The notes beneath the pieces were generated by a model. The model was not told the DNA's origin and did no database searches. It was given only the letters and a program-made list of their open reading frames with translations. Both the position numbers and the translations under genes were made by a program. A stretch of DNA of 64,000 nucleotides from Thermodesulfobacterium thermophilum DSM 1276 (GTDB taxonomy: Bacteria; Desulfobacterota; Thermodesulfobacteria; Thermodesulfobacteriales; Thermodesulfobacteriaceae), in the NCBI RefSeq assembly GCF_000421605.1, contig NZ_ATXI01000003.1, positions 62,001-126,000 on the forward strand, given 5' to 3'. Positions 50,060 to 64,000 of this stretch are shown piece after piece (positions within the stretch are counted from its first letter, which is position 1; each line of letters begins with the position of its first letter).

Positions 50060-51652
50060 TTACTCTAATCCACCGATTTCTATCTCCTCGGGTGCCTCTA
50101 TAGAAAATTTAACCTTAAAGGTCTTCTTTTCTCCTGGATTTAATTTTAATTCCCACTGAATAATTCCATCTTCTCCTATCTTTGCCTCTCCTTCTTTTGG
50201 AAGCTCTCTAATAACTTTTATCTTTTCGTTCCTTGATACAGGAAACTGATCTTTGAGATTAATATTTATACCTGTCTTTTTGCCATTTGTTATGATTATT
50301 TCATACTCATAGTTTATTCTTTTTTCCTTAGAAAGTATGCCTGTGTATTCTGTAAATTTCTTCACAAGTTTTCTTTCGATTTTTATTGATTCATCTATTC
50401 CAAGGCTTAAATCCATATTCTCATCCGGAAGTATCTGTTTTCTTATATTTATTCTGTTCACAAATCTTCCATCTACAAATATATTTACAATTCCTGAAGT
50501 GATCGGATATGACAGAGGGTTTTTAAAACTTCCATTAAGATAGGCGTATGAAGAAAGTTTGGGTACTGCTGAGTAATTTAAAATGATATCACTTGTTGCT
50601 GTTGTTATTACTATAGAATGAGGTTTTCCGTCTGATGGAACAGTGAGCTTTTTTGGAAATATAAACGTGAAAGAGCTTACTTCTTCCCTTACCTCTGGCT
50701 CTGGCTCTTTTTCCTCAAGAAATTCTTCAGGGCTTATAGCTTTCGTTTTCAATTTTTTATAAACCACAGGAGGTCTTGGTGTATACACATCAATATACCA
50801 TGGATAAAGCTCTGGCAAGGGTCCGTGGTGAGGTTTTGCCGTTGAGATTTCTAACTCGACATTCTTCCAGTCTTCTTGAGCGTTCTGGGCTATCTCTGCA
50901 AGGTTTACAACATCAACTTTCTTTGTTTTACTATCTATTCTCAATTCGTATTTTGGTTTCCAGCCTGCATTTTCAACCATGTATGAAAGCTCAAGAGTTA
51001 ATTCTTTTGGACTGTTTGAAGTAAAAATAACAGTAACCACCTTGCTAAAATCACCAGATTTTCTTAACTGAGATAGTTCCTTTTCAATCATTGCCTTTTC
51101 TTCATTCAGTTTCTTTATTGTTTTTTCTAATTTTGATACCCTATCAAGTCTCTCTTTTAAACTTCTTTCAAGATATTTTGCAAAGCTTTCTACTTCTGCT
51201 TCATTAGTTTTTAAGTTTTGAGAAAAGGGTGTAGATTTTTTAATAAATTCAATAGATGTCTTTAAAATCTCAAGATCATCTTGATTTTTGGTTATTGTTT
51301 CTTCTAACTCTTCTATTTTTTTCTCCAGACTCTTTATCTTTCCCTGAATAACTTTCCTTAGATAAGTTTTTTCAATCTTTACATCAAGTATCTTTATGCC
51401 TTTCTCATCTTTCGTTGAAATATTAACTGATTCATCAACTAAGTCTCCTGGAAGATCATAAATATTTAAAACATTTTCTCCGACCTGAGCTTTAAATCTA
51501 AGTTCTTTTTTGACAATAGCACCCTGTGGGTAAATGATTACTTTTCTTATAGTTGCCTCAGGCGTAATCTCAGAAGAATTGGCTTTTACCATTGCTATTA
51601 ACAAAATCAGCCATGTCAGAAGTATTAAATGGAAAAATCTATCACCCTTCAT
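50060..51652 (-). CDS. Secreted coiled-coil protein, DUF4139/MuiA-like
   Basis: 530 residues. Signal peptide (about 1-25), a DUF4140-like beta domain (VIIYPQGAIVKKEL), a long coiled coil at about 105-205, then a beta-rich DUF4139 domain (LELSYMVENAGWKPKYELRI near residue 225 and EISTAKPHHGPLPELYPW near residue 275). The mucoidy-inhibitor A family has this plan; its biochemical role is unknown. It lies between the first Cys-rich gene and the membrane protein gene in one transcription direction. Confidence 0.78.
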   Translation of the reverse strand: MKGDRFFHLILLTWLILLIAMVKANSSEITPEATIRKVIIYPQGAIVKKELRFKAQVGENVLNIYDLPGDLVDESVNISTKDEKGIKILDVKIEKTYLRKVIQGKIKSLEKKIEELEETITKNQDDLEILKTSIEFIKKSTPFSQNLKTNEAEVESFAKYLERSLKERLDRVSKLEKTIKKLNEEKAMIEKELSQLRKSGDFSKVVTVIFTSNSPKELTLELSYMVENAGWKPKYELRIDSKTKKVDVVNLAEIAQNAQEDWKNVELEISTAKPHHGPLPELYPWYIDVYTPRPPVVYKKLKTKAISPEEFLEEKEPEPEVREEVSSFTFIFPKKLTVPSDGKPHSIVITTATSDIILNYSAVPKLSSYAYLNGSFKNPLSYPITSGIVNIFVDGRFVNRINIRKQILPDENMDLSLGIDESIKIERKLVKKFTEYTGILSKEKRINYEYEIIITNGKKTGININLKDQFPVSRNEKIKVIRELPKEGEAKIGEDGIIQWELKLNPGEKKTFKVKFSIEAPEEIEIGGLE

Positions 51653-51666
51653 AACAAACCTCCTCC

Positions 51667-52521
51667 TTAATGTCTCTCTTTCATCCGAAGGACAATAGAT
51701 TTAATCACCAAAAGCAGAATTAATGGTGGAGCAAACAATATATTTGATATTAAAAAGGGTATAAGCATTAAAGACGTGAGAGCATCTAAAGTGTGAGGAA
51801 TTTCATAAATGCCAGATATCTTTTTTAAGACTATAAAGCTTAACTTTATACCCAATATTACACCTGGAATCGTAGCAGTAATAAACCACATCCATGCTAA
51901 AATCTTTATTGCTTTTGTTAGTTTATCTACTTTGCCAGATTCTTTAATGTTAATCTTTTTAAGTCTTTTTCTTTCTTTTTCTAAAGTTAGTGTTTTTAGT
52001 TCACGACCTTCTCCGTGTTGAAGTTTTAGATCAACGGTCAGGACTATCCAGATTATGAAAAAGGCAATCTGTTCTGGAATATCGTTTTTTATTTCAAGGG
52101 TCCATTGTCTTAAGCTGAAAAGTGCTTTTATCTTGTGTATAAATCCTTCAGGCCATTTTCGTGGTTCTTTTTTTATCTTTCCTATTAGCTCACCATTTTC
52201 AAATATAGAGTCATTATTTTTAACAAAACCAATTTCTAATTTTATTTCTCTACCATCAAACTCTATGAAATAATTGTATCCTATCTGAAATCCATCCGGT
52301 CTCTTTACCTCATACACTGTGCCATCGGGACATTCCATCCATAAATTAATGTTAATATCTCCTCCTACAAGATATTTTGCCCCTTCAGAGGTTACTATGG
52401 TGTCGTAGTCTGAGGCACTTTGAGTTATCTGAGCCAATTTTGAACCATCCGGAGAAAGAACCTCATAGGTGCGAGAAAAGAAACTTCTTTTTATGGGAAT
52501 TATTCTGTAGAAACTTTTCAT
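51667..52521 (-). CDS. Unrecognised membrane protein with beta-rich N-domain
   Basis: 284 residues. No signal peptide. Residues 1-125 form a beta-rich cytosolic domain (YEVLSPDGSKLAQI, EVKRPDGFQIGYNYFIEF) that loosely resembles tubby/LURP-one-type domains. Membrane helices occur at about 147-165, 205-228 and 245-275. Overlap with none; 14 bases before the DUF4139 gene and 2 bases after the Pro-rich gene. It may be the membrane anchor of the secreted system, but that is inference. Confidence 0.55.
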   Translation of the reverse strand: MKSFYRIIPIKRSFFSRTYEVLSPDGSKLAQITQSASDYDTIVTSEGAKYLVGGDININLWMECPDGTVYEVKRPDGFQIGYNYFIEFDGREIKLEIGFVKNNDSIFENGELIGKIKKEPRKWPEGFIHKIKALFSLRQWTLEIKNDIPEQIAFFIIWIVLTVDLKLQHGEGRELKTLTLEKERKRLKKINIKESGKVDKLTKAIKILAWMWFITATIPGVILGIKLSFIVLKKISGIYEIPHTLDALTSLMLIPFLISNILFAPPLILLLVIKSIVLRMKERH

Positions 52522-52523
52522 AA

Positions 52524-52820
52524 CTAATCTTCAGGTTGTTCGTGATGAGGATTCACGGTATCAAAGGGTGGCACTGGAGGCTTAGGAAGTCTCTGTCTAT
52601 CTCTATCTTCTTGCTTATCTGGCTTAGGTCTAGGACGTTCACGATCCTTTTTGTCATGTTTGTCATAGGATTGATCTCTTTCAGGATTTTCAGGCAGAAT
52701 AGAACTTATAAAAATTTGACTATTGGTTGTAGTGTCTCGCACTTGACTGAAAGAAGCCTGTGACTGACCTCCTAAAAACAACCAGGCAATAATAAAAACA
52801 CACAGTATTGAATATTTCAT
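52524..52820 (-). CDS. Small secreted proline/charge-rich protein
   Basis: 98 residues. Signal peptide of about 22 residues (ending SQA), then a low-complexity chain rich in Asp, Lys, Arg and Pro (RERPRPKPDKQEDRDRQRLP), probably disordered. ATG 52820 is preceded by AGGAGGTGAG, the same ribosome site as other island genes. Not recognised. A surface linker or partner role is possible. Confidence 0.6.
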   Translation of the reverse strand: MKYSILCVFIIAWLFLGGQSQASFSQVRDTTTNSQIFISSILPENPERDQSYDKHDKKDRERPRPKPDKQEDRDRQRLPKPPVPPFDTVNPHHEQPED

Positions 52821-52874
52821 AACTCACCTCCTGGGTTTTTTAAATTATAATAACACTCTACTGACTAAACTTAT

Positions 52875-53129
52875 TTAAGGTCTACACACCTCTACATACT
52901 TAACACATTCTCTATATATAGTGCAAATTTGTTCTCCAGGACAACATGGATTGGATTTACACTCTTTCTTTGGAGGTCCATATTCAACACACACCTTTAC
53001 TATCTCTTCGCATTCCTTCTTAGACTCAGAAGTTTTGTTATCAGATTCCGAGGCAGACAAAATTCCATTACTAACAACTAAAATAAACGAGTTTACTAAA
53101 AGAAAAAATAAAAAAAGAAATTTTTTCAT
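52875..53129 (-). CDS. Small secreted six-cysteine protein, paralogue 2
   Basis: 84 residues from ATG 53129 (AGGAGGG seven bases upstream; an upstream ATG at 53159 lacks one). Signal peptide about 25 residues. Cysteine pattern C-x6-C-x9-C-x11-C-x5-C-x6-C, with an extra CC pair inside the x11 loop, so this is the most divergent copy. Shares CTIYREC and CVKYVEVC with paralogue 1. Confidence 0.75.
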   Translation of the reverse strand: MKKFLFLFFLLVNSFILVVSNGILSASESDNKTSESKKECEEIVKVCVEYGPPKKECKSNPCCPGEQICTIYRECVKYVEVCRP

Positions 53130-53167
53130 AACCTTCCCTCCTAAAGTATCAGACTTCATTCCAATTT

Positions 53168-53422
53168 TTATTCTGACTTTTTGTCTGATCCATTTTTATC
53201 GGACTTAAGCATCGGTTCCTTACATCTTTTTTCGTATCTTTTACATACAGTGCGAAGCTCACAAATCTTAGACTCACTATCAGGACCAACTATTTTACAC
53301 TCTTCCTTTGTTTCCCACTCTACACATTCTGTTTTACAGTCTACTTCTGCAACAACAATACTACTAAATAGTGTTAAAGTTATACAGAAAAACAAAACTT
53401 TAAGAAGAATCATTTTCATCAT
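53168..53422 (-). CDS. Small secreted six-cysteine protein, paralogue 3
   Basis: 84 residues from ATG 53422 (GGAGGTGAT directly upstream; 53419 is a second possible start). Signal peptide ends near VVA. Pattern C-x3-C-x8-C-x11-C-x5-C-x6-C: CKTECVEWETKEEC, KIVGPDSESKIC, CELRTVC, CKRYEKRC. The KIVGPDSE loop is shared with paralogue 4 at 59211, its closest relative. An acidic/basic tail (LKSDKNGSDKKSE) follows the last cysteine. Confidence 0.78.
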   Translation of the reverse strand: MMKMILLKVLFFCITLTLFSSIVVAEVDCKTECVEWETKEECKIVGPDSESKICELRTVCKRYEKRCKEPMLKSDKNGSDKKSE

Positions 53423-53530
53423 ATCACCTCCCAAATTTTTACTTTCTAAGTTTTTTACTTTAATCTCCTGATTTTCATTTCTTACAATAAGATTCAACTT
53501 ATCCTTTCTAAAGTATTAATTTAGTGTAAC

Positions 53531-55435
53531 TCATAAAGCAGTCTTTTTAAATCTAACTTCATTTAAAAGCTGCCTATAAACTGCATTTCTGGTTTTTAAA
53601 AGTTGCTCTGGTAGTCGGTTGTAAAACTTCTTGGCAAGCTCTATCTGTCCGGCCTTAGAATAAACTACAATCCTTACAAGCGAGAAAAGATTATCCTGGT
53701 AGTTTGACTCTAATTTTTTCAATATCTCAATAGCTTCTTTGTGTCTTCCTTTATCACAATATAAAAGCGACATTGCCATACAAGCAAGTGGATTCTCTGG
53801 ATTTAATTCGTAAGATTTAACGGCATAGTTTTCAAACTCCTGAGAATTACCTGTTATTCTTAAAATGATTGCTTTAAAACCTAAAGCTTCGGAAGCTTCT
53901 GGAGATGTTAAAACCTCAGGTTTGATTTCTAAATCTCTCAGTTCAGAAGAGTTCCCGGATTGGATAGTAATTTTGACTATCTCATTCCCTTGTATATATT
54001 TAGTAACCTTATCTAACATGTTTCCTTCTTGTCTATAAAGTCGCAAGTCTCTGTTATCAATATTTATTATCTTGTCTCGAGGTTTCAAACCTGCCTTTTC
54101 TGCTGGAGAGTTCCTATAAACACGAATAATCTCTGGATAGATTTCACCCTGTATAACCTCTGCTCCTATACCATTGTTGGTAAAACCTGAAATAATGTCA
54201 TCCAAGATTTCAAAGGCTTTTTTATATTCTCCTTTACCGGCATAAGTAAAGGCAATGTGAATCTTCTCTAAAGGATTCGCTTCTGTTAGAGGAGCAATAG
54301 TGTCTATTAAAGCCTTCGCTTCATTAAACCGCTCAAGCATGTTGAGACTATGTAAAATTTCTATCTGATAAGGTAAAGCAGAAACATCACACATCGTTGC
54401 CTTATCCTCTCCCCAAAATCTCAGTGAAAAATACTCACACCTCTCTCTAACATGCTCTAAAACTTTTTTAAAATAAAATATTGCCTTCCTATAATCATTT
54501 TTAAATTCAGCTATTTTTCCGAGAATGTAATAAGCTTCGTATAAATCTATTCCAAAAACATCAGGATCAAATATTAATGCTGTTTCTGCAAAGGCTTTTG
54601 CTTTATCATACTTTTTTTCGTATAAGTAAATTTTTGCAAGTGATAAATAGTGAGAGGGATTGTAAGGAGAATTTTTTATTTGATGAAATAAAATATTTTT
54701 TGCCTTTTCATATTGACCTGTTGCCATATAAAAAAGTAAAAGGTCACTATAATCAGGATTTTCAGAAACTTCAATTGCTTTTTTGAATGCCTTTTCTGCT
54801 TTATCTAAATCTAATCTGGAGAAGTACTTCTTTCCAAGATTGTCTAAATCAGCTACATTCTTTTGCTTAGCATGAATTTCAAGAACCTCATCAAAACTAT
54901 ACCTACACCCATCACTTGCTGGTGGGGTTTCAGCATAACAGAAAAATTCGTGAGAAGCACCTCCAAAGCCGTCAAAAACTACAAATGTTCTGTGAGGCAT
55001 TTCAAGACCGAGTTTTTTAGCTACTTGTTTTATAGTTGGATAAAGAGGATAATCCGGAGTAAGTAAAGGAGAAATTTTAGCACGATAAAACCTGATCACG
55101 AATGTTTGATAATTTAGCACATCAGTGCCTTCAGTGTCAGGATTACGACATTCAATAACAAAAAGATCGTTCTTTTCAATATTACCATTTTCAACAAGCC
55201 TTCTCGTTTCTTGATAGGTAATTGTCCTGTTATTGACCTTTAATTTCAGGTTTTCTGGGACACAATTATTCAAAACGAATTCCACGGTATTGTCTTTTTT
55301 TATAGCATACTGAATTTCACCATTCACCAGGTCCGTTCTTGTTTCTATGCAGGTGTATTTTTCCTGAGCATATGCAAAATTTAACAAAGATAAAAAAATA
55401 ACTAATATAAGAAAAAGTTTCGCACTTTTTCTCAT
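53531..55435 (-). CDS. Secreted TPR protein with a central PDZ domain
   Basis: 634 residues. Signal peptide 1-23 (ending AYA). An N-terminal unknown domain (about 25-190) includes FVVFDGFGGASHEFFCYA. TPR repeats follow (about 195-440), then a PDZ domain (about 445-535) with VYRNSPAEKAGLKPRDKIINI, then more TPR-like helices. No protease triad is visible, so the PDZ probably serves binding. Likely a scaffold in the periplasm or on the surface for the small proteins of this operon. Confidence 0.78.
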   Translation of the reverse strand: MRKSAKLFLILVIFLSLLNFAYAQEKYTCIETRTDLVNGEIQYAIKKDNTVEFVLNNCVPENLKLKVNNRTITYQETRRLVENGNIEKNDLFVIECRNPDTEGTDVLNYQTFVIRFYRAKISPLLTPDYPLYPTIKQVAKKLGLEMPHRTFVVFDGFGGASHEFFCYAETPPASDGCRYSFDEVLEIHAKQKNVADLDNLGKKYFSRLDLDKAEKAFKKAIEVSENPDYSDLLLFYMATGQYEKAKNILFHQIKNSPYNPSHYLSLAKIYLYEKKYDKAKAFAETALIFDPDVFGIDLYEAYYILGKIAEFKNDYRKAIFYFKKVLEHVRERCEYFSLRFWGEDKATMCDVSALPYQIEILHSLNMLERFNEAKALIDTIAPLTEANPLEKIHIAFTYAGKGEYKKAFEILDDIISGFTNNGIGAEVIQGEIYPEIIRVYRNSPAEKAGLKPRDKIINIDNRDLRLYRQEGNMLDKVTKYIQGNEIVKITIQSGNSSELRDLEIKPEVLTSPEASEALGFKAIILRITGNSQEFENYAVKSYELNPENPLACMAMSLLYCDKGRHKEAIEILKKLESNYQDNLFSLVRIVVYSKAGQIELAKKFYNRLPEQLLKTRNAVYRQLLNEVRFKKTAL

Positions 55436-55493
55436 TTTAGCCCCTTTTTCTTATCTTTTTAATTAGACTGTTTTAATTCCAATTAAAATTACT

Positions 55494-57491
55494 TTATCGT
55501 ATGTTTTCTTCATCTACCCTTTCAACCGAATCAACGTAAACATAATAATTTCCTATTGGTCCAAAATATTCTCTTTTATAGACAAGATAAAGTTTTAGTT
55601 TGTATTTTCCTGATTGTAATATGCTTAAATCATCTCCCTCTATTCCTGCGATATGATAAAATGGTCCAGACTTGGTCATTCCAACTACTTCAAGAACAGA
55701 TCCATAGTCATAAGGTTTAGTTACTACCACCTCAACTTCTCTTTCAACAGGTGGCATCAGTGGACCAAATTTAGATACTTCAATGGGATTGCTTGAACTC
55801 TGTCCATCGTGAGTTAGCTTGTAATCCGTTGTTCCCATGTTTTCAAATCGCTTTAACTCATTCTCTAAATAGGCAATTTTTTGTTGTTTATCAGGATGCT
55901 GCGATGCTTTATATCTCTTTATCTCCATTTTTATAGCTCTTATTGTGGCATCTATAAGTCTTTTTTTCAAAAGCTCTGTCCCAAGATCAACTTTAATGCT
56001 AATGTTTATAGGTCCTGTGTGTTGATAAAGGTTAGAAAATATAAAGAATGGTTCATCTCTAACCATCGGAATAACAAGATTTTTTATCTCTACTGTATAT
56101 GGCATCTGGAAACCAAATTCTTTCTGAAGGTCGTAAACTAAGACTGTTCCCTCAGGCAATAAAGCTTTACAGTTATCAGGTTCTGTCCTTTTAAACACTA
56201 TCTGATAGGTTGGAACTTGATTGTCAATTTTGTAAATTCTATTTACTTCAGCTTTGACAGAATTTTTATCTGTGCAGCCTTTAGTGTTTACTGTTATGGC
56301 TATTTTGTGTTCTTTAACCTCAACTGCTCTTAATACCAGTATTCCTGTATCCGTAGCCAGAAAGGAGTACTCAGGCTTCATTTTAATGTCCGAATTTACG
56401 GGATCTTTGGAAATTCCTCCCCATTCAACTGCGGTAAAACCCTTTCTTTTAATAGGTTGTATTTTTGGTGGTTTGATATCCCTGTATTCATCCACCGCTT
56501 CAAAGTAAAGAATAACCCTGATGACTGTCTGAGGCTCTGGTATGATGCTGAGTTTCAGGTTTTTTTCTAAAAATTCTCTATCAACCATTTTGATGATATA
56601 GTACCTTGCAGGTGATAAAGCTTTTATCCAGTAATCCTTAAAATCTTTAATTTCTCTTTCTTTCAGTCCCATCTGTGGAAGATATTCATCAAACCAGTTT
56701 TCAAGGTTACAATACGGAACGATCCATCCTTCATCAGGCAGTTTAATGGTCTCTTCAAGCTGGGCTTCATAAAAAAGATAGTCATATTTCCCATCGATTT
56801 TACCATCAGGCGTAACCCTAACCTCCCAGCCAGTTTTATATTCTGGAATACTATCTGTAATGGTTCCTTTAATATTCAGATCAACTTTTATTCTGGTTGG
56901 TTTTTCAGGGTAAAGATATATAGCAGGTTTTTTAACTACCGGTGCCTCTTCACACTGGATAAGCTCAATTCCATCAAAAGTAAAACAAAGAAGTTCTTTC
57001 TTAGATGGACAGCAAGACGGATCACTTTCTTTGTGGGTTAACATATCAAGAAGAATTTCTAATCTCATTGTAGGAAAAATTGGTCTATTTACCACTTCGA
57101 TGTTTTCTATTTTTAATCTATCACCTAAAACGATAGATTTTGTTTGAAAAACAGTGTCATCAGCTTTAGAAATCAAGGCTGTTAACTCATAGAAAATTCC
57201 ACTTCCACCACCAGACTGACCAAGAACAACCACTGCATCAGGTATACTATCTCCGTTCAGATCTTTAATCAGAAATTTTTCAACCCAAACTTTCAGGTAA
57301 TCAGGAAAGGGTTGTTCGTATTTACCATCTTTTAAGGTAACAGTACGGTTTCCAAAGGTTAAACGATAAGTAAAATTGTTAACTAAATCACTATCAATTT
57401 TTTTATGACTTGCAATAGAAGAGTTAACGTTAAAAAAAGTGAGAAACAAAAGGATTATGAATGTAATTAAAGATAAAGAGCTCGATCTCAT
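55494..57491 (-). CDS. Large secreted protein with FG-GAP-like calcium loop and KPxIYLYP domain
   Basis: 665 residues. Signal peptide about 1-27. A DLNGDSIPD loop (77-85) resembles the calcium loops of FG-GAP/VCBS proteins. Residues from 188 begin KPAIYLYPEKPTRIKVDL, a motif I recall from conserved uncharacterised bacterial secreted proteins. The last 270 residues are beta-rich. Cysteines at 160, 161, 169 and 180 could pair. No enzyme motif was seen. ATG 57491 follows a GAGAGG ribosome site. Confidence 0.6.
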   Translation of the reverse strand: MRSSSLSLITFIILLFLTFFNVNSSIASHKKIDSDLVNNFTYRLTFGNRTVTLKDGKYEQPFPDYLKVWVEKFLIKDLNGDSIPDAVVVLGQSGGGSGIFYELTALISKADDTVFQTKSIVLGDRLKIENIEVVNRPIFPTMRLEILLDMLTHKESDPSCCPSKKELLCFTFDGIELIQCEEAPVVKKPAIYLYPEKPTRIKVDLNIKGTITDSIPEYKTGWEVRVTPDGKIDGKYDYLFYEAQLEETIKLPDEGWIVPYCNLENWFDEYLPQMGLKEREIKDFKDYWIKALSPARYYIIKMVDREFLEKNLKLSIIPEPQTVIRVILYFEAVDEYRDIKPPKIQPIKRKGFTAVEWGGISKDPVNSDIKMKPEYSFLATDTGILVLRAVEVKEHKIAITVNTKGCTDKNSVKAEVNRIYKIDNQVPTYQIVFKRTEPDNCKALLPEGTVLVYDLQKEFGFQMPYTVEIKNLVIPMVRDEPFFIFSNLYQHTGPINISIKVDLGTELLKKRLIDATIRAIKMEIKRYKASQHPDKQQKIAYLENELKRFENMGTTDYKLTHDGQSSSNPIEVSKFGPLMPPVEREVEVVVTKPYDYGSVLEVVGMTKSGPFYHIAGIEGDDLSILQSGKYKLKLYLVYKREYFGPIGNYYVYVDSVERVDEENIR

Positions 57492-57516
57492 GTTTACAAA
57501 CCTCTCAAATTTTTAA

Positions 57517-58569
57517 TCAATCTATGCAAATGTTTCTACAAGCTTCAACCGAATCAAAAGGTACCACATCATCACATCCACCATAAAAAAATTTTTCACA
57601 CTTATCTAAACCAGGTATAAAATATGCTCCCCAGAATAGTCCTTTACAGGGGCCCACTTGAGGTATTAAATAACATCTCTTTTTAATATCTATTTTTTTT
57701 CCTTGAGTTCTTTCCAAAGTTTCTTTTAAAAACAAAGCTATATTTTTTCTTCCTTTAAAAACGCAAAAGTCTAAATCCTTTTCTGTCGGAACATTACCTT
57801 TTTCAACAAGTAATTTAACAAGTTTTACCGAATCACTGTTAGTACAAACATAACTAATCGATTTTTCTTGTAATACATTAACACCTTTTCTTATTAAAAT
57901 ATCTACTATATCTTCATAGCCCTTTATTAAAGCTTTTTCCAATGTTTTTTCATTAACTGGTACACCCCAATTAATTAACATCAAACCTACTTTTTTGTGG
58001 CCTCTACTTAAAAATTCATTTAAAGTTTCTACATCGATGTTTTCTTTAACCTTAAATCCTTTTTGTACGCAAAGATTAAAAATTTCCATAATCTTTGAAT
58101 CTAAAGTTTCTGGATAAAAGACAAAATTATATAAAGGTATTTTCCCATAACCATCTTTGTAAACACAATCAGCCTTGTTTTGAATAAGAAAAGAAATGGT
58201 AGTTATGTCTCGTGCATAAAGTATTGCCTGATGTAAAGGAGTTTCTCCTATATTGTTGGGTGTATTGATATCTATCCCTTTTTCTAATAAAAGTCTAATG
58301 ATTTCTTTATAATTTTTCCTGACCGCATAGTGAAGTAAAGTATCTCCGTATTTATCTCGAATGTTTAGATCTTCTTGCTTTAATATATATTCTTTCATCC
58401 TCTCAGGATCTTCAGAAATCTCTTTTAATTCAGCAGTTATTGAATTTAACAATTTTTCGTAAAGATCGGCTGGAGCAGAGAATGATCGTATACTATGTAA
58501 AAGGAGAAGAAAAAAAGTTAGCAACAAAACTTGATAAATCCAAACTTTGTTATCAATAGAATTTTTCAC
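57517..58569 (-). CDS. Secreted ankyrin-repeat protein with C-terminal Kunitz/BPTI domain
   Basis: 350 residues, GTG start at 58569 with GAGGTC upstream. N-terminal signal/anchor helix (about 11-27), ankyrin repeats from about 70 (YGDTLLHYAVRKNYKEII, GETPLHQAI), then a Kunitz domain at 299-348. Its six cysteines are spaced 8, 15, 7, 11 and 3 apart, against 8, 15, 7, 12 and 3 in BPTI; GPCK and FYGGC are identical to the family hallmarks. The reactive P1 residue would be Lys, predicting inhibition of trypsin-like proteases. Confidence 0.85.
   Translation of the reverse strand: MKNSIDNKVWIYQVLLLTFFLLLLHSIRSFSAPADLYEKLLNSITAELKEISEDPERMKEYILKQEDLNIRDKYGDTLLHYAVRKNYKEIIRLLLEKGIDINTPNNIGETPLHQAILYARDITTISFLIQNKADCVYKDGYGKIPLYNFVFYPETLDSKIMEIFNLCVQKGFKVKENIDVETLNEFLSRGHKKVGLMLINWGVPVNEKTLEKALIKGYEDIVDILIRKGVNVLQEKSISYVCTNSDSVKLVKLLVEKGNVPTEKDLDFCVFKGRKNIALFLKETLERTQGKKIDIKKRCYLIPQVGPCKGLFWGAYFIPGLDKCEKFFYGGCDDVVPFDSVEACRNICID
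57526..57675 (-). other. Kunitz/BPTI inhibitor domain region
   Basis: Part of the preceding protein (residues 299-348). Segments CYLIPQVGPC, KGLFWGAYFIPGLDKC, EKFFYGGC, DDVVPFDSVEAC and RNIC give all six disulfide cysteines and the Lys P1 position after the second cysteine. Expected disulfides are 1-6, 2-4 and 3-5. Confidence 0.85.
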
Positions 58570-58604
58570 ATTTTTTGACCTCTATCTTTTCAATTAAATT
58601 TTTG

Positions 58605-58901
58605 TTACTTTAACTCTTTATCAATTTGAGGAGTAGGTGTTGGTATGTATTCCATTCCTCCTCCGCTTAAGTTTGAAGGCCTTGAGGTATCAAAGCCCTG
58701 CCCTGCCTGGTATCTCGATCTTTCCCAAGAACTATTTAGGTCTTTATAATTTCCAGGATGTGCTGAATCTTTTTCTGCTTGCCAGGAACTACCGGAAGTC
58801 CCTGAAGCCTGATCATAAGCAGAATCTTTAGCTATACAAACCCCAGATGATAAAAATACTACTACTCCTGCTAAACCAACCAAAAGTTTCAAGTTTTTCA
58901 T
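58605..58901 (-). CDS. Small secreted Ser/Gly-rich protein
   Basis: 98 residues. Signal peptide about 24 residues (ending CIA). The mature chain is polar and has no cysteine: SAYDQASGTSGSSWQAEKD and GGGMEYIPTPTPQ. ATG 58901 has an AAGGGGGTGGG site. Probably disordered and exported; not recognised. 35 bases upstream of the ankyrin-Kunitz gene. Confidence 0.6.
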   Translation of the reverse strand: MKNLKLLVGLAGVVVFLSSGVCIAKDSAYDQASGTSGSSWQAEKDSAHPGNYKDLNSSWERSRYQAGQGFDTSRPSNLSGGGMEYIPTPTPQIDKELK

Positions 58902-58924
58902 AACCCACCCCCTTAAATTTAAGG

Positions 58925-59191
58925 TTATTTACCGTGACCATACTGGCCTTTACGGTTAATATTAGGAACACTATATTTTGGCGAACCTCTAAGTCTTTCC
59001 TTGAAATCTTTGTTTTGGGTATCTGTATTTTTTGAGGAACTTGTTGAAGTATTGATTTCATAATTATTCGAAGATACCGTACTTGTTGAACTACTAACCG
59101 ATTGATTTGAATCGTTGGTAGCTTTAAGGTCTTTTATTAAAAATATACATATTAACAAACAAAAATTTAAAATAAAACTCTTTTTTTTCAT
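58925..59191 (-). CDS. Small secreted Ser/Thr/Asn-rich protein
   Basis: 88 residues from ATG 59191, chosen because AGGAGG lies just upstream and the following residues (MKKKSFILNFCLLICIFLI) are a signal peptide; an earlier ATG at 59299 would overlap paralogue 4 and lacks a ribosome site. The mature part is Ser/Thr/Asn-rich (SVSSSTSTVSSNNYEINTS) with a basic C-terminus. Function unknown. Confidence 0.55.
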   Translation of the reverse strand: MKKKSFILNFCLLICIFLIKDLKATNDSNQSVSSSTSTVSSNNYEINTSTSSSKNTDTQNKDFKERLRGSPKYSVPNINRKGQYGHGK

Positions 59192-59210
59192 CGTTAACCT
59201 CCTGCAAATT

Positions 59211-59501
59211 TTATAATATAGGCCCTTCCTCACATATTGTGTCATATTTTTTACATACAGGACGTAGAACGCAGGTTTTAGCTTCGCTATCAGGTCCAAC
59301 TATTTTACATTCCTCCTCTGTCCCCCATACTACACATACCTTTTTACAATGCATTTTTGTTTTTTGGTGATGATCTTTATGATTATCAGACTTATCCATG
59401 TCAGGCATCGGTCTTTCTTCAGCCATGCTGGCACTTCCACTAAGAAACACTAAAATAAAAGAAACCAAACAAAATAGAATTAAAAAAAACACCTTATTCA
59501 T
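59211..59501 (-). CDS. Small secreted six-cysteine protein, paralogue 4 (first gene of the island operon)
   Basis: 96 residues. Signal peptide about 27 residues (ending SMA), a His/Asp-rich linker (NHKDHHQKTKMH), then the C-x3-C-x8-C-x11-C-x5-C-x6-C core (CKKVCVVWGTEEEC, KIVGPDSEAKTC, CVLRPVC, CKKYDTIC). It shares the KIVGPDSE loop with paralogue 3. The His/Asp linker could bind metal. It is promoter-proximal in the operon. Confidence 0.8.
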   Translation of the reverse strand: MNKVFFLILFCLVSFILVFLSGSASMAEERPMPDMDKSDNHKDHHQKTKMHCKKVCVVWGTEEECKIVGPDSEAKTCVLRPVCKKYDTICEEGPIL

Positions 59502-60301: not shown

Positions 60302-60550
60302 TTAAAACGCTCTTTTATTGAATTTTTTGAGCTCCCCCGCTGGGATTAAAATTTTATTTCCTAATTTTGTGCTTGCAAGCTTGCCTTGTTTTACATATTT
60401 CCAAATTGTCTGAGGGTGCAGCCCGACAAGACTTGCAAATTCTGTTATCGTGTAAGCTTCCCTTTCTTTAGCCTCTTCTTTCACTACACGCTCAAACTCA
60501 TCAAGCAGATCTCTCATTATTTCAATCATCTCAATAAGCTTTTCTTTCAC
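60302..60550 (-). CDS. Excisionase-like helix-turn-helix protein
   Basis: 82 residues from GTG 60550 (GGAGGG six bases upstream). An N-terminal helix is followed by a MerR/excisionase-type winged helix: YTITEFASLVGLHPQTIWKYV and KLGNKILIPAGELKKF. It faces the tRNA fragment 60 bases away, as element xis genes often do. It could be an excisionase or a small repressor. No integrase is in the window. Confidence 0.75.
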   Translation of the reverse strand: MKEKLIEMIEIMRDLLDEFERVVKEEAKEREAYTITEFASLVGLHPQTIWKYVKQGKLASTKLGNKILIPAGELKKFNKRAF

Positions 60551-60640
60551 TTCTTACCCTCCCCTTTTTTACATTTATTAACCTTGACAATTTTTAAAAA
60601 TGTATTAGTTTTCAAAATTAAGATATGTTTTACTTTTCCG

Positions 60641-60725
60641 ACCTGCTCCTTTGAGGGGCAGGTACCCCTTTTAGGGGTTAGCCGATTTCGGCTTAGTCCC
60701 TAATTGATAGGGACAGCGAAATCGG
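60641..60725 (+). other. Cluster of four hairpins with a larger alternative stem
   Basis: Hairpin 1: ACCTGC/GCAGGT (60641-60663). Hairpin 2: ACCCC/GGGGT (60664-60678). Hairpin 3: AGCCG/CGGCT (60680-60693). Hairpin 4: GTCCCTA/TAGGGAC (60696-60714). CCGATTTCG (60682-60690) can instead pair with CGAAATCGG (60717-60725), enclosing hairpin 4. It may be a structured RNA, a single-strand origin or a nicking-site element. Confidence 0.6.
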
Positions 60726-60865
60726 AGCGTCCAGATTAGAAAGTTTTAAAAAGCAGTGTTTTAAAGTGTAAGTCAAGTAAAAAAATTAAAAAAGTCAAAA
60801 AATTAAAAAAAGTTAGAAGTCAAGAAAGTTAAATAAAGTCAAGTAGTCTCAAAAGTCTTAAAGTC

Positions 60866-60989
60866 TTAAAAATTTTCAAAAATCTCAAAAATTCAACTTC
60901 TCAAATCTTCAAAAATTCTCTGTAAAAATCCCCCCCCAAAAAAGTTTTATAAAACAAAAAAAAGAAAAAAGTTTAAAAATTTTCAAAAA
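60866..60989. repeat. Pair of 17-bp direct repeats in AT-rich DNA
   Basis: TTAAAAATTTTCAAAAA occurs exactly at 60866-60882 and 60973-60989, 107 bases apart. Short A-tract repeats fill the area, so chance is possible; an iteron or unwinding role is speculative. Confidence 0.35.
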
Positions 60990-61124
60990 GACTCAAAATC
61001 CTGAAAAAGCTCAAATTTTTCAGTTATTACCTCTTCAATATTTTAAAAATCTTTTCAAAAATCCTTAAACCCCCAAAAAAAGCATAAAAAAACGCTATTT
61101 TCTTAAATTACTGAAAGCTAAGTC

Positions 61125-61154
61125 CCGCGGGTTTAATTACAACCCGCGGTTTTT
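61125..61154 (+). terminator. Inverted repeat with T-run, first of two terminator-like hairpins
   Basis: CCGCGGGTT (61125-61133), 7-base loop, AACCCGCGG (61141-61149), then TTTTT: a perfect 9-bp GC-rich stem, a strong intrinsic terminator on the plus strand. Confidence 0.7.
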
Positions 61155-61156
61155 AC

Positions 61157-61178
61157 GGGGCTTCCCCCTTTTTTTTTT
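61157..61178 (+). terminator. Second terminator-like hairpin with long T-run
   Basis: GGGG (61157-61160), CTT loop, CCCC (61164-61167), one C and ten T. It lies just upstream of the 61235 gene, so it ends a plus-strand transcript arising in the hairpin region or attenuates read-through into the operon. Confidence 0.6.
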
Positions 61179-61234
61179 ATGAGTTGTTACTGCACACACA
61201 TTTAATATTTAAAAAACTTTAAAAGGGGGGACAA

Positions 61235-61654
61235 ATGAACCCGACCCCGCAACAGCTAAATTGGAATCTTATCTACAATTTTTCAGAGCATATAATAAAA
61301 AAACGCTTCTGGGACAGTCGCTATGAAGTAAAAGACATCGTTCAAGAGTTTCTTTTGTATCTTCTTGGAGTAATCAAAAAAAACCCTTCTCCCTGGTTTG
61401 AAGTTTCTAAAAAAACTTCTCTCATTTACAAAAGAATTTCCTGGGAGTTCTCAAAGTTTATCACACGCTATGACTATACTCATTTGCAGTCCCTCATCAC
61501 CCCCGGGTGGCACGAAAAAAACGGAAAAAACGGAAAAAACGGAAAAAACAACAAAGGACAGCTCAAGTTTTTTGACACAGAAGAAAAAAAAGAAGTGTTC
61601 TGCATTGTGAGCTTTGAAGACTTTAAAAAACAAGATAAGGGGGAGAAACTATGA
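61235..61654 (+). CDS. Unknown element protein, weakly sigma-factor-like
   Basis: 139 residues, ATG 61235 after AAAAGGGGGG. Residues 30-75 (YEVKDIVQEFLLYLLGVI) faintly resemble region 2 of ECF sigma factors, but region 4 is absent. Three 9-bp repeats (61522-61548) encode a GKN tract. Its stop overlaps the next start by 4 bases (ATGA), so it is coupled to the primase-like gene. Confidence 0.55.
   Translation: MNPTPQQLNWNLIYNFSEHIIKKRFWDSRYEVKDIVQEFLLYLLGVIKKNPSPWFEVSKKTSLIYKRISWEFSKFITRYDYTHLQSLITPGWHEKNGKNGKNGKNNKGQLKFFDTEEKKEVFCIVSFEDFKKQDKGEKL
61522..61548 (+). repeat. Three tandem 9-bp repeats inside the 61235 gene
   Basis: CGGAAAAAA is repeated three times at 61522-61530, 61531-61539 and 61540-61548, giving a short Gly-Lys-Asn tract. 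In-frame slippage can change its length. Confidence 0.8.
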
Positions 61655-63579
61655 TAATAAAAGAAAAAAATAATACAATCAATTCAATTCTTTCAGAAAT
61701 GTATATTAACACTTTCACAGAAAGCATTAATACAGTCTTCAAAACTTTTTTCTCAACTGAGCTTGAAGAAGACGAATACATTGAAGTAGTCTTTGACAGT
61801 GCTGATAAGCAGTTTAACAAAGCAAAACACGTAAAAACTTTTGAAGAGTTTCTCTTTCTTGTGAAAAGTCTTGACAAAAAGTTTAACGTGACATTTTGTC
61901 CTGCAGTGAGAAAAATTACAGAAGACAAAAAAAACAGAAGAACAGGGTTAGAAAACATTTCAAGAGTAAAAGGCATTGTTCTTGATGTAGAGAAGAAAAA
62001 CGATCACAACACGAAAAAAGAAAGCACAGAAGTCATTAAACTTATAGACTCAGTTTACAGTCAGCTCCCTGATGAGTTGAAACAAGCTGTTTTCTATACC
62101 GCCTACACCGGGGGCGGAGGGCAGATAGCAATCGTTTTCAACCGCTTTCTTGACAGAGAAAAAGCAAAAGAAGTTTACGAGAAACTGAAAGAATATCTTT
62201 CGCATGTTGAAAACGTTGACTTGATGAGTTTCAACATTGCTGGCTGTCAAAGGCTGATTGGGACTACAAACTTGAAATATGATGTGCAGAGCTTTCTTCT
62301 CTGGAAAAATCCCAGGGTGGTTCCTATTGACATTGAAACGTTTTTGAAAGGTGCTGAAGAATCAGAAAATGCAGTAAACGAACTTTCTGTTGAAGTTGAA
62401 AAAGCAACTGAAAAGCAAGTAGTTTTTCATAGAATAGACAAAGACTGCATTGACGAAATCAAAAGAAGAGTATCGTTTGCAAGCATTTTTGACGAAATCG
62501 GAGTGCAGTATAAAAGATATGCCCACTACCTTTCTGTAATTTGCCCCTTCCATTCCGAAAGGCACCCTTCTTTCGTAGTTTTTTTCTCAAATTCCTATCG
62601 GGACTGGGAGCTTGCTGTTGATTATCACGACAATGAAAGATACGACATCATAAGCTTTGTACAAAAATACTACGACATAAGCTTTTCAAAAGCTATTGAA
62701 ATGCTTGCCGAAAAAGCGGGCATAAAAGTAAAAAAACTTAGAGGAAGACCTAAAAAAGAGGAAGAGGGAGAAGAAGAGGAAAAAATAACAGATGCGAGAG
62801 AGTTTTTTAGCATTCTTGGCGTTGAAAAAATTCTTAGATACGTTGAAGAAGAAGAGCATCACTACGAATTTCACTTTCAGGACAAGGATGGGATGAGACA
62901 CGTTTTGAAGATGGCGTTCATAGACCTAATGTATGATGCCAAAAAATTTTTAACTGCATGGGGGGCAAAAAGCGGAATTTCCCCCATTGTAGCCCTGAAT
63001 GGTGTAAAGTATTCATGGAGAGATATACTAAGCAGTCTTGACGAAATAGCCGAGAAGCACGAATACTTCTACAGAGCCTCAGAAAAAGAACTTCTTGCCG
63101 AAGAGCTAAGACAATTCATCATCTCTCAACCTTTTACTGATGACCTTGATGGAATTACTATGCAAAACGCTGCGGCACTCAAATATGTAGAAGAGGAGAA
63201 AGTCTATATCTCTCTCACTTCTCTTGCAACAAAAATCCGCTACCTTGCACCCCATTTACCTGCAAGTATCAAAAAACTTGTTGAACTTCTGCAATACTTA
63301 GGGTGCAGAAACAAAAGATTGAAAAAAGGGGAAAAAAAATACAGATTGTGGGAGCTTCCTGGGAACCCAGAAGATTGGAGAGTGCCTGCAAAAACAAAGA
63401 CAGAGCAGCCTGAAATAAAATCTGAGGCTGTTGAAGAAAAAGAAGAAAAAAGGGTGTCTGAAACCAAAGAAAGAAAAGGAGAAAAGAAAGAAGAGGAAAG
63501 AATAGTAAAAGACTTCTGGGACTGGAGCAAAGTTCAGGAGGAGATTGAATCGGTGAAAGAATCCGAAATCCCTTTTTAG
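61651..63579 (+). CDS. Primase-like protein: archaeo-eukaryotic primase-like N-half and degenerate CHC2 zinc-finger region
   Basis: 642 residues. The N-half has features of AEP/PrimPol primases: D112-x-E114 in GIVLDVEKK, TGGGGQIAIVFNR near 153-165 and CQRLIGTTNLKYD near 200-211. Residues 275-365 align with the DnaG zinc-finger region (CPFHSERHPSFVV at 298-310, then IISFVQKYYDISFSKAIEMLAEKAGI), but the FKCFGC pair is replaced by VDYHD near 323-327, so zinc binding is doubtful. The tail is charged. Likely the element's replication initiator or primase. Confidence 0.65.
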   Translation: MIIKEKNNTINSILSEMYINTFTESINTVFKTFFSTELEEDEYIEVVFDSADKQFNKAKHVKTFEEFLFLVKSLDKKFNVTFCPAVRKITEDKKNRRTGLENISRVKGIVLDVEKKNDHNTKKESTEVIKLIDSVYSQLPDELKQAVFYTAYTGGGGQIAIVFNRFLDREKAKEVYEKLKEYLSHVENVDLMSFNIAGCQRLIGTTNLKYDVQSFLLWKNPRVVPIDIETFLKGAEESENAVNELSVEVEKATEKQVVFHRIDKDCIDEIKRRVSFASIFDEIGVQYKRYAHYLSVICPFHSERHPSFVVFFSNSYRDWELAVDYHDNERYDIISFVQKYYDISFSKAIEMLAEKAGIKVKKLRGRPKKEEEGEEEEKITDAREFFSILGVEKILRYVEEEEHHYEFHFQDKDGMRHVLKMAFIDLMYDAKKFLTAWGAKSGISPIVALNGVKYSWRDILSSLDEIAEKHEYFYRASEKELLAEELRQFIISQPFTDDLDGITMQNAAALKYVEEEKVYISLTSLATKIRYLAPHLPASIKKLVELLQYLGCRNKRLKKGEKKYRLWELPGNPEDWRVPAKTKTEQPEIKSEAVEEKEEKRVSETKERKGEKKEEERIVKDFWDWSKVQEEIESVKESEIPF

Positions 63580-63589
63580 GAGGTGAGCT

Positions 63590-64000
63590 ATGGGCAAGGT
63601 AATAAAGATCTTTGGCCCCCCGGGGACAGGAAAAACAACCTCAATTGTTTCTCTTTTAAAAAAGCTTATTGCAAGAAAGGAAATTAGAGAAAAAAGCGTT
63701 TACGCTGTCTCCCTTACAAAAGCAACGAAGTATGCCTTTCTCAAAAAGTGCAGAGATGAAGGAATCGAAATCCCCCCCGCAAACGTGAGAACCCTTCACA
63801 GTTTTGCTTACAAAAAACTTAAAGAAGAGGGTGAAAAAGTGAAATTAATTAAAGCGGAGGAACTCAAAGAATTTTTCAGGGAAAAAGGCTTTGAGTTTGA
63901 GATTGGAGAACTGGACGAAGAAAACTCATATTCACAATCTGAATATTCAGACCTTCCAGGGAATCGGGCTTTTGCGGGTTTTCAAAAACTGAGACTTACC
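63590..64000 (+). CDS. UvrD/PcrA-like superfamily 1 helicase (3' end outside window)
   Basis: 137 visible residues, open to the window end. ATG 63590 follows AGGAGGTGAG. Walker A FGPPGTGKTTSI at residues 8-19, motif Ia-like VSLTKATKYAFL, and NVRTLHSFAYKKL typical of UvrD-family helicases. With the primase-like gene 10 bases upstream it forms a replication module of the element. Confidence 0.85.
   Translation, partial: MGKVIKIFGPPGTGKTTSIVSLLKKLIARKEIREKSVYAVSLTKATKYAFLKKCRDEGIEIPPANVRTLHSFAYKKLKEEGEKVKLIKAEELKEFFREKGFEFEIGELDEENSYSQSEYSDLPGNRAFAGFQKLRLT

Follow-up and report, generated by a model that had tools for sequence, protein, structure and literature searches.

The window analysed here is a stretch of 64,000 nucleotides from Thermodesulfobacterium thermophilum DSM 1276, and its minus strand carries a gene encoding ankyrin repeats followed by a C-terminal Kunitz/BPTI domain (Table 1); the plus-strand reading of the same positions is full of stops. 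The gene sits inside a 133-kb bacterial contig, in a co-directional run of 11 genes that spans 50060-59501 and in which no gap exceeds 58 nt. The original prediction described this setting as an operon of cysteine-rich secreted proteins. Three small secreted cysteine-rich genes are indeed present, but they form a minority of the run, which also includes a secreted TPR-PDZ protein whose NCBIfam matches are confined to its PDZ or TPR part.

Table 1. Features of the ankyrin-Kunitz gene and its cluster, in window coordinates.
Feature	Position	Strand	Details and basis
Ankyrin-Kunitz open reading frame	57517..58569	minus	350 aa, GTG start
AGAGG, likely ribosome-binding site	58579..58583	minus	Sequence reading; eight to nine bases upstream of GTG
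Predicted N-terminal signal peptide, residues ~1-32 (VLLLTFFLLLL then SFSA)	58474..58569	minus	Sequence reading; model helix 5-28
Ankyrin repeat solenoid, residues ~37-289	57703..58461	minus	Pfam Ank_2; AlphaFold2 helices; DARPin match
Kunitz/BPTI domain, residues 299-348	57526..57675	minus	PF00014; AlphaFold2 on 32 relatives; BPTI 6pti match
P1 Lys309 codon (GPC-K-G), predicted reactive site	57643..57645	minus	K in 5/5 ankyrin-Kunitz proteins
Neighbour gene, 665 aa, secreted, without Pfam match	55494..57491	minus	25 nt downstream of ankyrin-Kunitz
Neighbour C-terminal module (residues 508-657)	55521..55970	minus	BLASTP E 5e-13 and 2e-9
Neighbour N-terminal module (residues 32-170)	56982..57398	minus	39% identity, E 2e-22, to G229 gene
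Small secreted protein (SAYDQA...)	58605..58901	minus	Kept in G398, G028 and the serpin-bearing G100 locus
Small secreted protein ending SPKYSVPNINRKGQYGHGK	58925..59191	minus	Related tail just upstream of Geomobilimonas luticola ankyrin-Kunitz
Small Cys-rich secreted protein A	59211..59501	minus	Paralogue of 53168-53497 across genomes, E 3e-14
Small Cys-rich secreted protein B	53168..53497	minus	Paralogue of protein A (59211-59501)
Small Cys-rich secreted protein C	52875..53159	minus	
Secreted TPR-PDZ protein, without protease domain	53531..55435	minus	Pfam TPR and PDZ_6

The C-terminal domain matches Pfam Kunitz_BPTI (PF00014) with 30.3 bits against a cut-off of 21 (E = 4.7e-7) and the repeat region matches Ank_2 with E = 9.5e-21, scores that exclude chance as the source of the Kunitz match at the sequence level. 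The features from which the domain was originally predicted are exact in the minus-strand reading frame: six cysteines in Kunitz order with spacing 8-15-7-11-3, the GPCK loop and FYGGC. The canonical reactive loop is complete, GPCKG placing Gly at P4, Lys at P1 and Gly at P1'. Pairwise comparison with PDB sequences gave animal Kunitz proteins only among the 60 matches shown, the best being SmCI (E = 1e-15) and TFPI (E = 1e-12). This is the only Kunitz domain in the genome, and the protein that carries it has no match to the serpin family (PF00079).

In a full-length AlphaFold2 model built from four sequences (pLDDT 83) the Kunitz part reached a pLDDT of only 52-72, and the domain was therefore modelled alone on 32 bacterial relatives, giving a pLDDT of 93.4 and a two-stranded sheet with a C-terminal helix. 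All 50 PDB matches listed for this model are Kunitz chains, with TFPI (5nmv) the best (Z 8.4, rmsd 2.4 over 60 residues); APP-KPI (1aap) gave Z 8.2 and rmsd 1.6 over 55, and BPTI (6pti), the comparison proposed with the original prediction, Z 8.0 and rmsd 1.9 over 55 residues. The ankyrin fusion and the export of the protein are likewise borne out. About seven repeats precede the Kunitz domain in a solenoid that is continuous in the model to about residue 289, beyond the strongest Pfam stretch and with pLDDT mostly above 85, and whose best structural matches are DARPins and other ankyrin structures (DARPin 6mok_A, Z 18.8, rmsd 3.9 over 246 residues); the signal peptide, modelled as a helix, predicts that the protein is exported. 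By every available test of sequence and predicted fold the domain is Kunitz, but not of the animal subtype, having 11 residues between Cys4 and Cys5 and a Pro-Phe pair versus 12 residues and Asn-x-Phe.

The ankyrin-Kunitz fusion is present in two congeners, G398 (87% identity) and G028 (47%), and absent from the remaining congeners searched. It recurs in two distant members of the phylum: the metagenome-assembled genome (MAG) G229 (36% over 313 amino acids, E 8e-72; contig L038 is one and the same as the G229 contig) and the cultured Geomobilimonas luticola JCM 17780 (37% over 302 amino acids, E 1e-64). A genome-contig scan with the whole protein as query found no relative, and one contig-collection search used a four-row alignment whose fourth row was a constructed consensus, serving as bait only and entering no other result. 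The P1 Lys on which a trypsin-like target had been predicted is kept, followed by Gly or Ala at P1', in all five ankyrin-Kunitz proteins. Comparison of the window with G398 indicates purifying selection: dN/dS comes to 0.23 over the whole gene, 0.21 over its ankyrin region and 0.14 over its Kunitz region, where no more than 8 nucleotides differ.

The surroundings of the cluster vary. Adjoining it, positions 60302-64000 of the window encode an HTH_17 protein, a CHC2 zinc-finger primase-like protein and a UvrD-type helicase, a gene content suggesting that a mobile element, or a segment resembling a plasmid, may lie upstream of the cluster. In G398, a tRNA-Arg (L029:8081-8155) lies about 0.7 kb upstream of the cluster and the flanking genes are unlike those of the window, so the position of the cluster is not conserved between species. 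Insertion of a genomic island at a tRNA was considered; no tRNA was found in the window, unlike in G398. The G028 cluster contains an IS110-family transposase (L030:7665-8864; Pfam E 4e-28). Small secreted proteins with a variable middle and the conserved tail SPKY.VP....KG.YG..K (58925-59191 in the window, L078:10297-10620 and L030:7148-7426) are encoded near ankyrin-Kunitz in three genomes.

The 665-aa neighbour protein consists of two separable modules. Its gene lies next to that of ankyrin-Kunitz in G398 and in G229, and G028 has it within the same locus. G229 has the two modules apart: the N-terminal one is encoded on its own immediately downstream of ankyrin-Kunitz, and a homologue of the C-terminal one forms the C-terminal end of the ankyrin-Kunitz protein itself, a fusion that ties the two genes together as a 'Rosetta stone'. 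Of 395 genomes, 23 contain the neighbour, namely all three with ankyrin-Kunitz (G000, the genome studied here, G028 and G229) and 20 of the 392 others, a co-occurrence expected by chance with a probability of about 2e-4 assuming independent genomes, although two of the three come from congeners. It was rejected as a reliable marker of inhibitor loci, as it lies among unrelated genes in G073, G074 and G278. In G102 (L110:2322-5828), a 1169-aa Sel1-ankyrin protein is flanked by two copies of its N-terminal module.

Inhibitors of the BPTI type are treated as an animal family. HMM searches found Kunitz domains in 8 of 395 genomes of Thermodesulfobacterium's phylum, and in 5/296, 3/349 and 7/100 genomes of the phyla to which a Saprospiraceae, a gammaproteobacterial and a Neomarinimicrobiota MAG belong; 14 control genomes contained none, and plasmids, phages and viral contigs gave no match. 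Bacterial Kunitz domains are therefore rare, as originally stated. Architectures other than the ankyrin fusion include DUF2330-Kunitz proteins, small secreted proteins or lipoproteins with a single Kunitz domain, and a six-Kunitz protein. This last, from a Saprospiraceae MAG (L039; G424:C141:46609-47643), is secreted, and its tandem domains have K, E, K, E, K and R at P1. A secreted domain with a C-terminal Kunitz domain is found at L003, L004, L034, L036 and L037, DUF2330-like in L003 (25.4 bits, cut-off 24.7). The small secreted Kunitz proteins at L054 and L007, from G. luticola and G202, both continue past the Kunitz domain into a common C-terminal module, DPVE..DPRY ... W.SP.ELNP. The small lipoprotein-like Kunitz proteins of Neomarinimicrobiota (L053, L071-L074) have Glu at P1, an unusual choice which suggests that they may be aimed at Glu-specific proteases.

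The short Cys4-Cys5 spacing noted in the original prediction is a common feature of these domains, found in 31 of 32 together with an invariant Pro-Phe; the exception, G028, carries an extra His and retains VVPF. In the 12 animal domains drawn from PDB alignments the spacing is 12 throughout, with Asn-x-Phe or Asn-x-Tyr. A maximum-likelihood tree of the 44 domains separates bacteria from animals with 100/95 support, and because it rests on 56 columns, with few animal rows (12) and a midpoint root used for drawing only, only this split and a handful of inner forks can be used. A recent acquisition from an animal, or a contaminated assembly, might be suspected since Kunitz domains are mainly animal and transfer has been suggested, without proof, for an Acinetobacter Kunitz protein (PMC11511053). 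Such an origin is extremely improbable, however: the gene lies within a long bacterial contig and a co-directional operon, its orthologues come from separately assembled genomes and one isolate, and the bacterial domains stand apart from the animal ones in the tree and have an indel in common. Thinly scattered across several phyla and marked by a deletion and a Pro-Phe signature of its own, the bacterial branch is relevant to how the family originated. Its reactive site is partly variable: P4 Gly is invariant and P1' is Ala or Gly in 31 of 32 domains, and P1 is Lys or Arg in 21, Glu in 7, Asp in 2, Leu in 1 and Gln in 1, so that trypsin specificity does not extend to the entire bacterial subfamily.

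The congener G100 has no Kunitz domain (HMM search, 395-genome sample). At the position that ankyrin-Kunitz occupies in G028, between the SAYDQA and Cys-rich genes, the G100 locus encodes a serpin (L109:7062-8309; Pfam E 1.5e-128). Five genes match between the two loci, with identities of 71% for a 1024-aa gene, 69% for SAYDQA, 73% for the neighbour, 80% for SIMPL and 55% for the Cys-rich gene; the G100 cluster is also rearranged, with two neighbour copies. G. luticola has a serpin gene (E 3.7e-113) and three Kunitz genes clustered within about 13 kb; one of the three is ankyrin-Kunitz, 6 kb from the serpin. Both serpins contain the hinge EEGTEAAAATA, typical of inhibitory serpins. In serpins, P1 is located by counting 17 residues from P17, as in alpha-1-antitrypsin. 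Counted from the hinge, both read TK followed by S, giving a predicted P1-P1' of Lys-Ser and, by prediction, the same trypsin-like preference as ankyrin-Kunitz.

That one locus should hold either of two unrelated inhibitor folds with an identical predicted P1 suggests that it serves serine-protease inhibition; this is the best evidence for its function and comes from few cases, one syntenic locus (G100) and one nearby case (G. luticola). It lends independent support to the protease-inhibitory system originally proposed, as a predicted function, and suggests that the gene cluster may work as a bacterial anti-protease module. A broader proposal, put forward tentatively and at somewhat less than an even chance, is that the phylum keeps a dedicated anti-protease locus in which ankyrin-Kunitz and serpin interchange with P1 Lys kept, the Kunitz branch being old and purely bacterial. 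If true, interchangeable inhibitor folds would imply that a trypsin-like protease of competitors or predators exerts steady selective pressure, and the exchange of Kunitz and serpin with the same predicted P1 offers a testable case for the defence of some anaerobic bacteria against trypsin-like proteases.

The ankyrin-Kunitz gene itself probably encodes an exported serine-protease inhibitor, predicted to block a trypsin-like protease with its Kunitz loop and to dock with its ankyrin arm. The Kunitz disulfides would form by oxidation in the periplasm, for which a VKOR-like protein is a candidate oxidant; this protein has one 21-bit match, below the cut-off of 27.5, with no Pfam match on rescan, and its CxxC and C-terminal CPNC motifs are no more than suggestive of a disulfide-forming enzyme. 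By the standard substrate-like mechanism, the loop would then plug the active site of the protease with Lys309 in the S1 pocket, and the ankyrin arm would bind elsewhere, either to another face of the protease or to a partner in the envelope, for which the neighbour protein encoded alongside is a possible candidate. A different role, considered unlikely, is that of a heat-stable, disulfide-rich binding or adhesion module without inhibitory activity, the protein serving as a scaffold in the envelope together with ankyrin, TPR and PDZ proteins. A parallel is offered by the animal Kunitz domains whose targets are channels or matrix; in addition, interaction domains abound in the cluster and proteases are missing from it, Glu or Asp stands at P1 in some of the bacterial Kunitz domains, and a lipoprotein-like Kunitz protein (L005, G285:C42, P0007) lacks Cys2 and Cys4, which form the disulfide beside the reactive loop, keeping the other four cysteines. 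Two points count against such a role: the P3-P1' signature is intact in each of the five ankyrin-Kunitz proteins, and the syntenic locus holds a serpin, which is an inhibitor by fold and has an inhibitory hinge.

Assuming the protein is an inhibitor, its target would more likely be foreign, from community competitors or predators, than a protease of the cell itself. The only trypsin-fold protease found in the genome is one HtrA (G000:C18:19149-19553), the sole match to PF13365 or PF00089, and S1 pockets of HtrA proteases usually prefer small aliphatic residues, so a foreign trypsin-like target is the more likely. Internal regulation of this HtrA/DegP, which shares its compartment with the exported inhibitor, has a low probability: HtrA is near-universal (12/14 control genomes) and Kunitz rare, Lys at P1 does not suit such a pocket, and the HtrA gene is unlinked to the cluster. 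No peptidase family scored over the cut-off in the cluster genes scanned, and thus no cognate protease was found there.

The closest known systems each match part of this protein. Bd3460 of Bdellovibrio is an exported ankyrin-repeat self-protection protein that sterically blocks two peptidoglycan DD-endopeptidases, one of them, bd3459, encoded next door in the same operon (PMC4686830). By analogy, ankyrin-Kunitz could confer immunity against an exported peptidase of the cell's own, with its Kunitz and ankyrin parts blocking different proteases, but this is very unlikely, as the ankyrin-Kunitz cluster lacks the peptidase gene that accompanies Bd3460, which itself has no Kunitz domain. Like ankyrin-Kunitz, F6W77 of Acinetobacter baumannii is a Kunitz protein annotated in a bacterial genome, and it inhibits serine proteases with a P1 Arg reported as key; it differs in having five tandem Kunitz domains, no ankyrin repeats and a suspected animal origin, and is likened here by description only (PMC11511053). 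Bacterial serpins (PF00079), at the G100 syntenic locus and near the G. luticola orthologue, have the same predicted P1 Lys but an unrelated fold, a suicide mechanism and no homology. One serpin phylogeny argues for ancient prokaryotic serpins over animal transfer (PMC8233489), a parallel and not evidence for Kunitz. Ankyrin-Kunitz proteins, of which no description was found in the open-access literature, belong with the Kunitz inhibitors (MEROPS I2). With BPTI, TFPI, APP-KPI, boophilin and SmCI the protein of the window has in common the six-cysteine framework, the predicted fold, P1 Lys, P1' Gly or Ala and P4 Gly, and it is set apart by a Cys4-Cys5 spacing of 11 in place of 12, Pro-Phe in place of Asn-x-Phe, the ankyrin fusion and a bacterial host.
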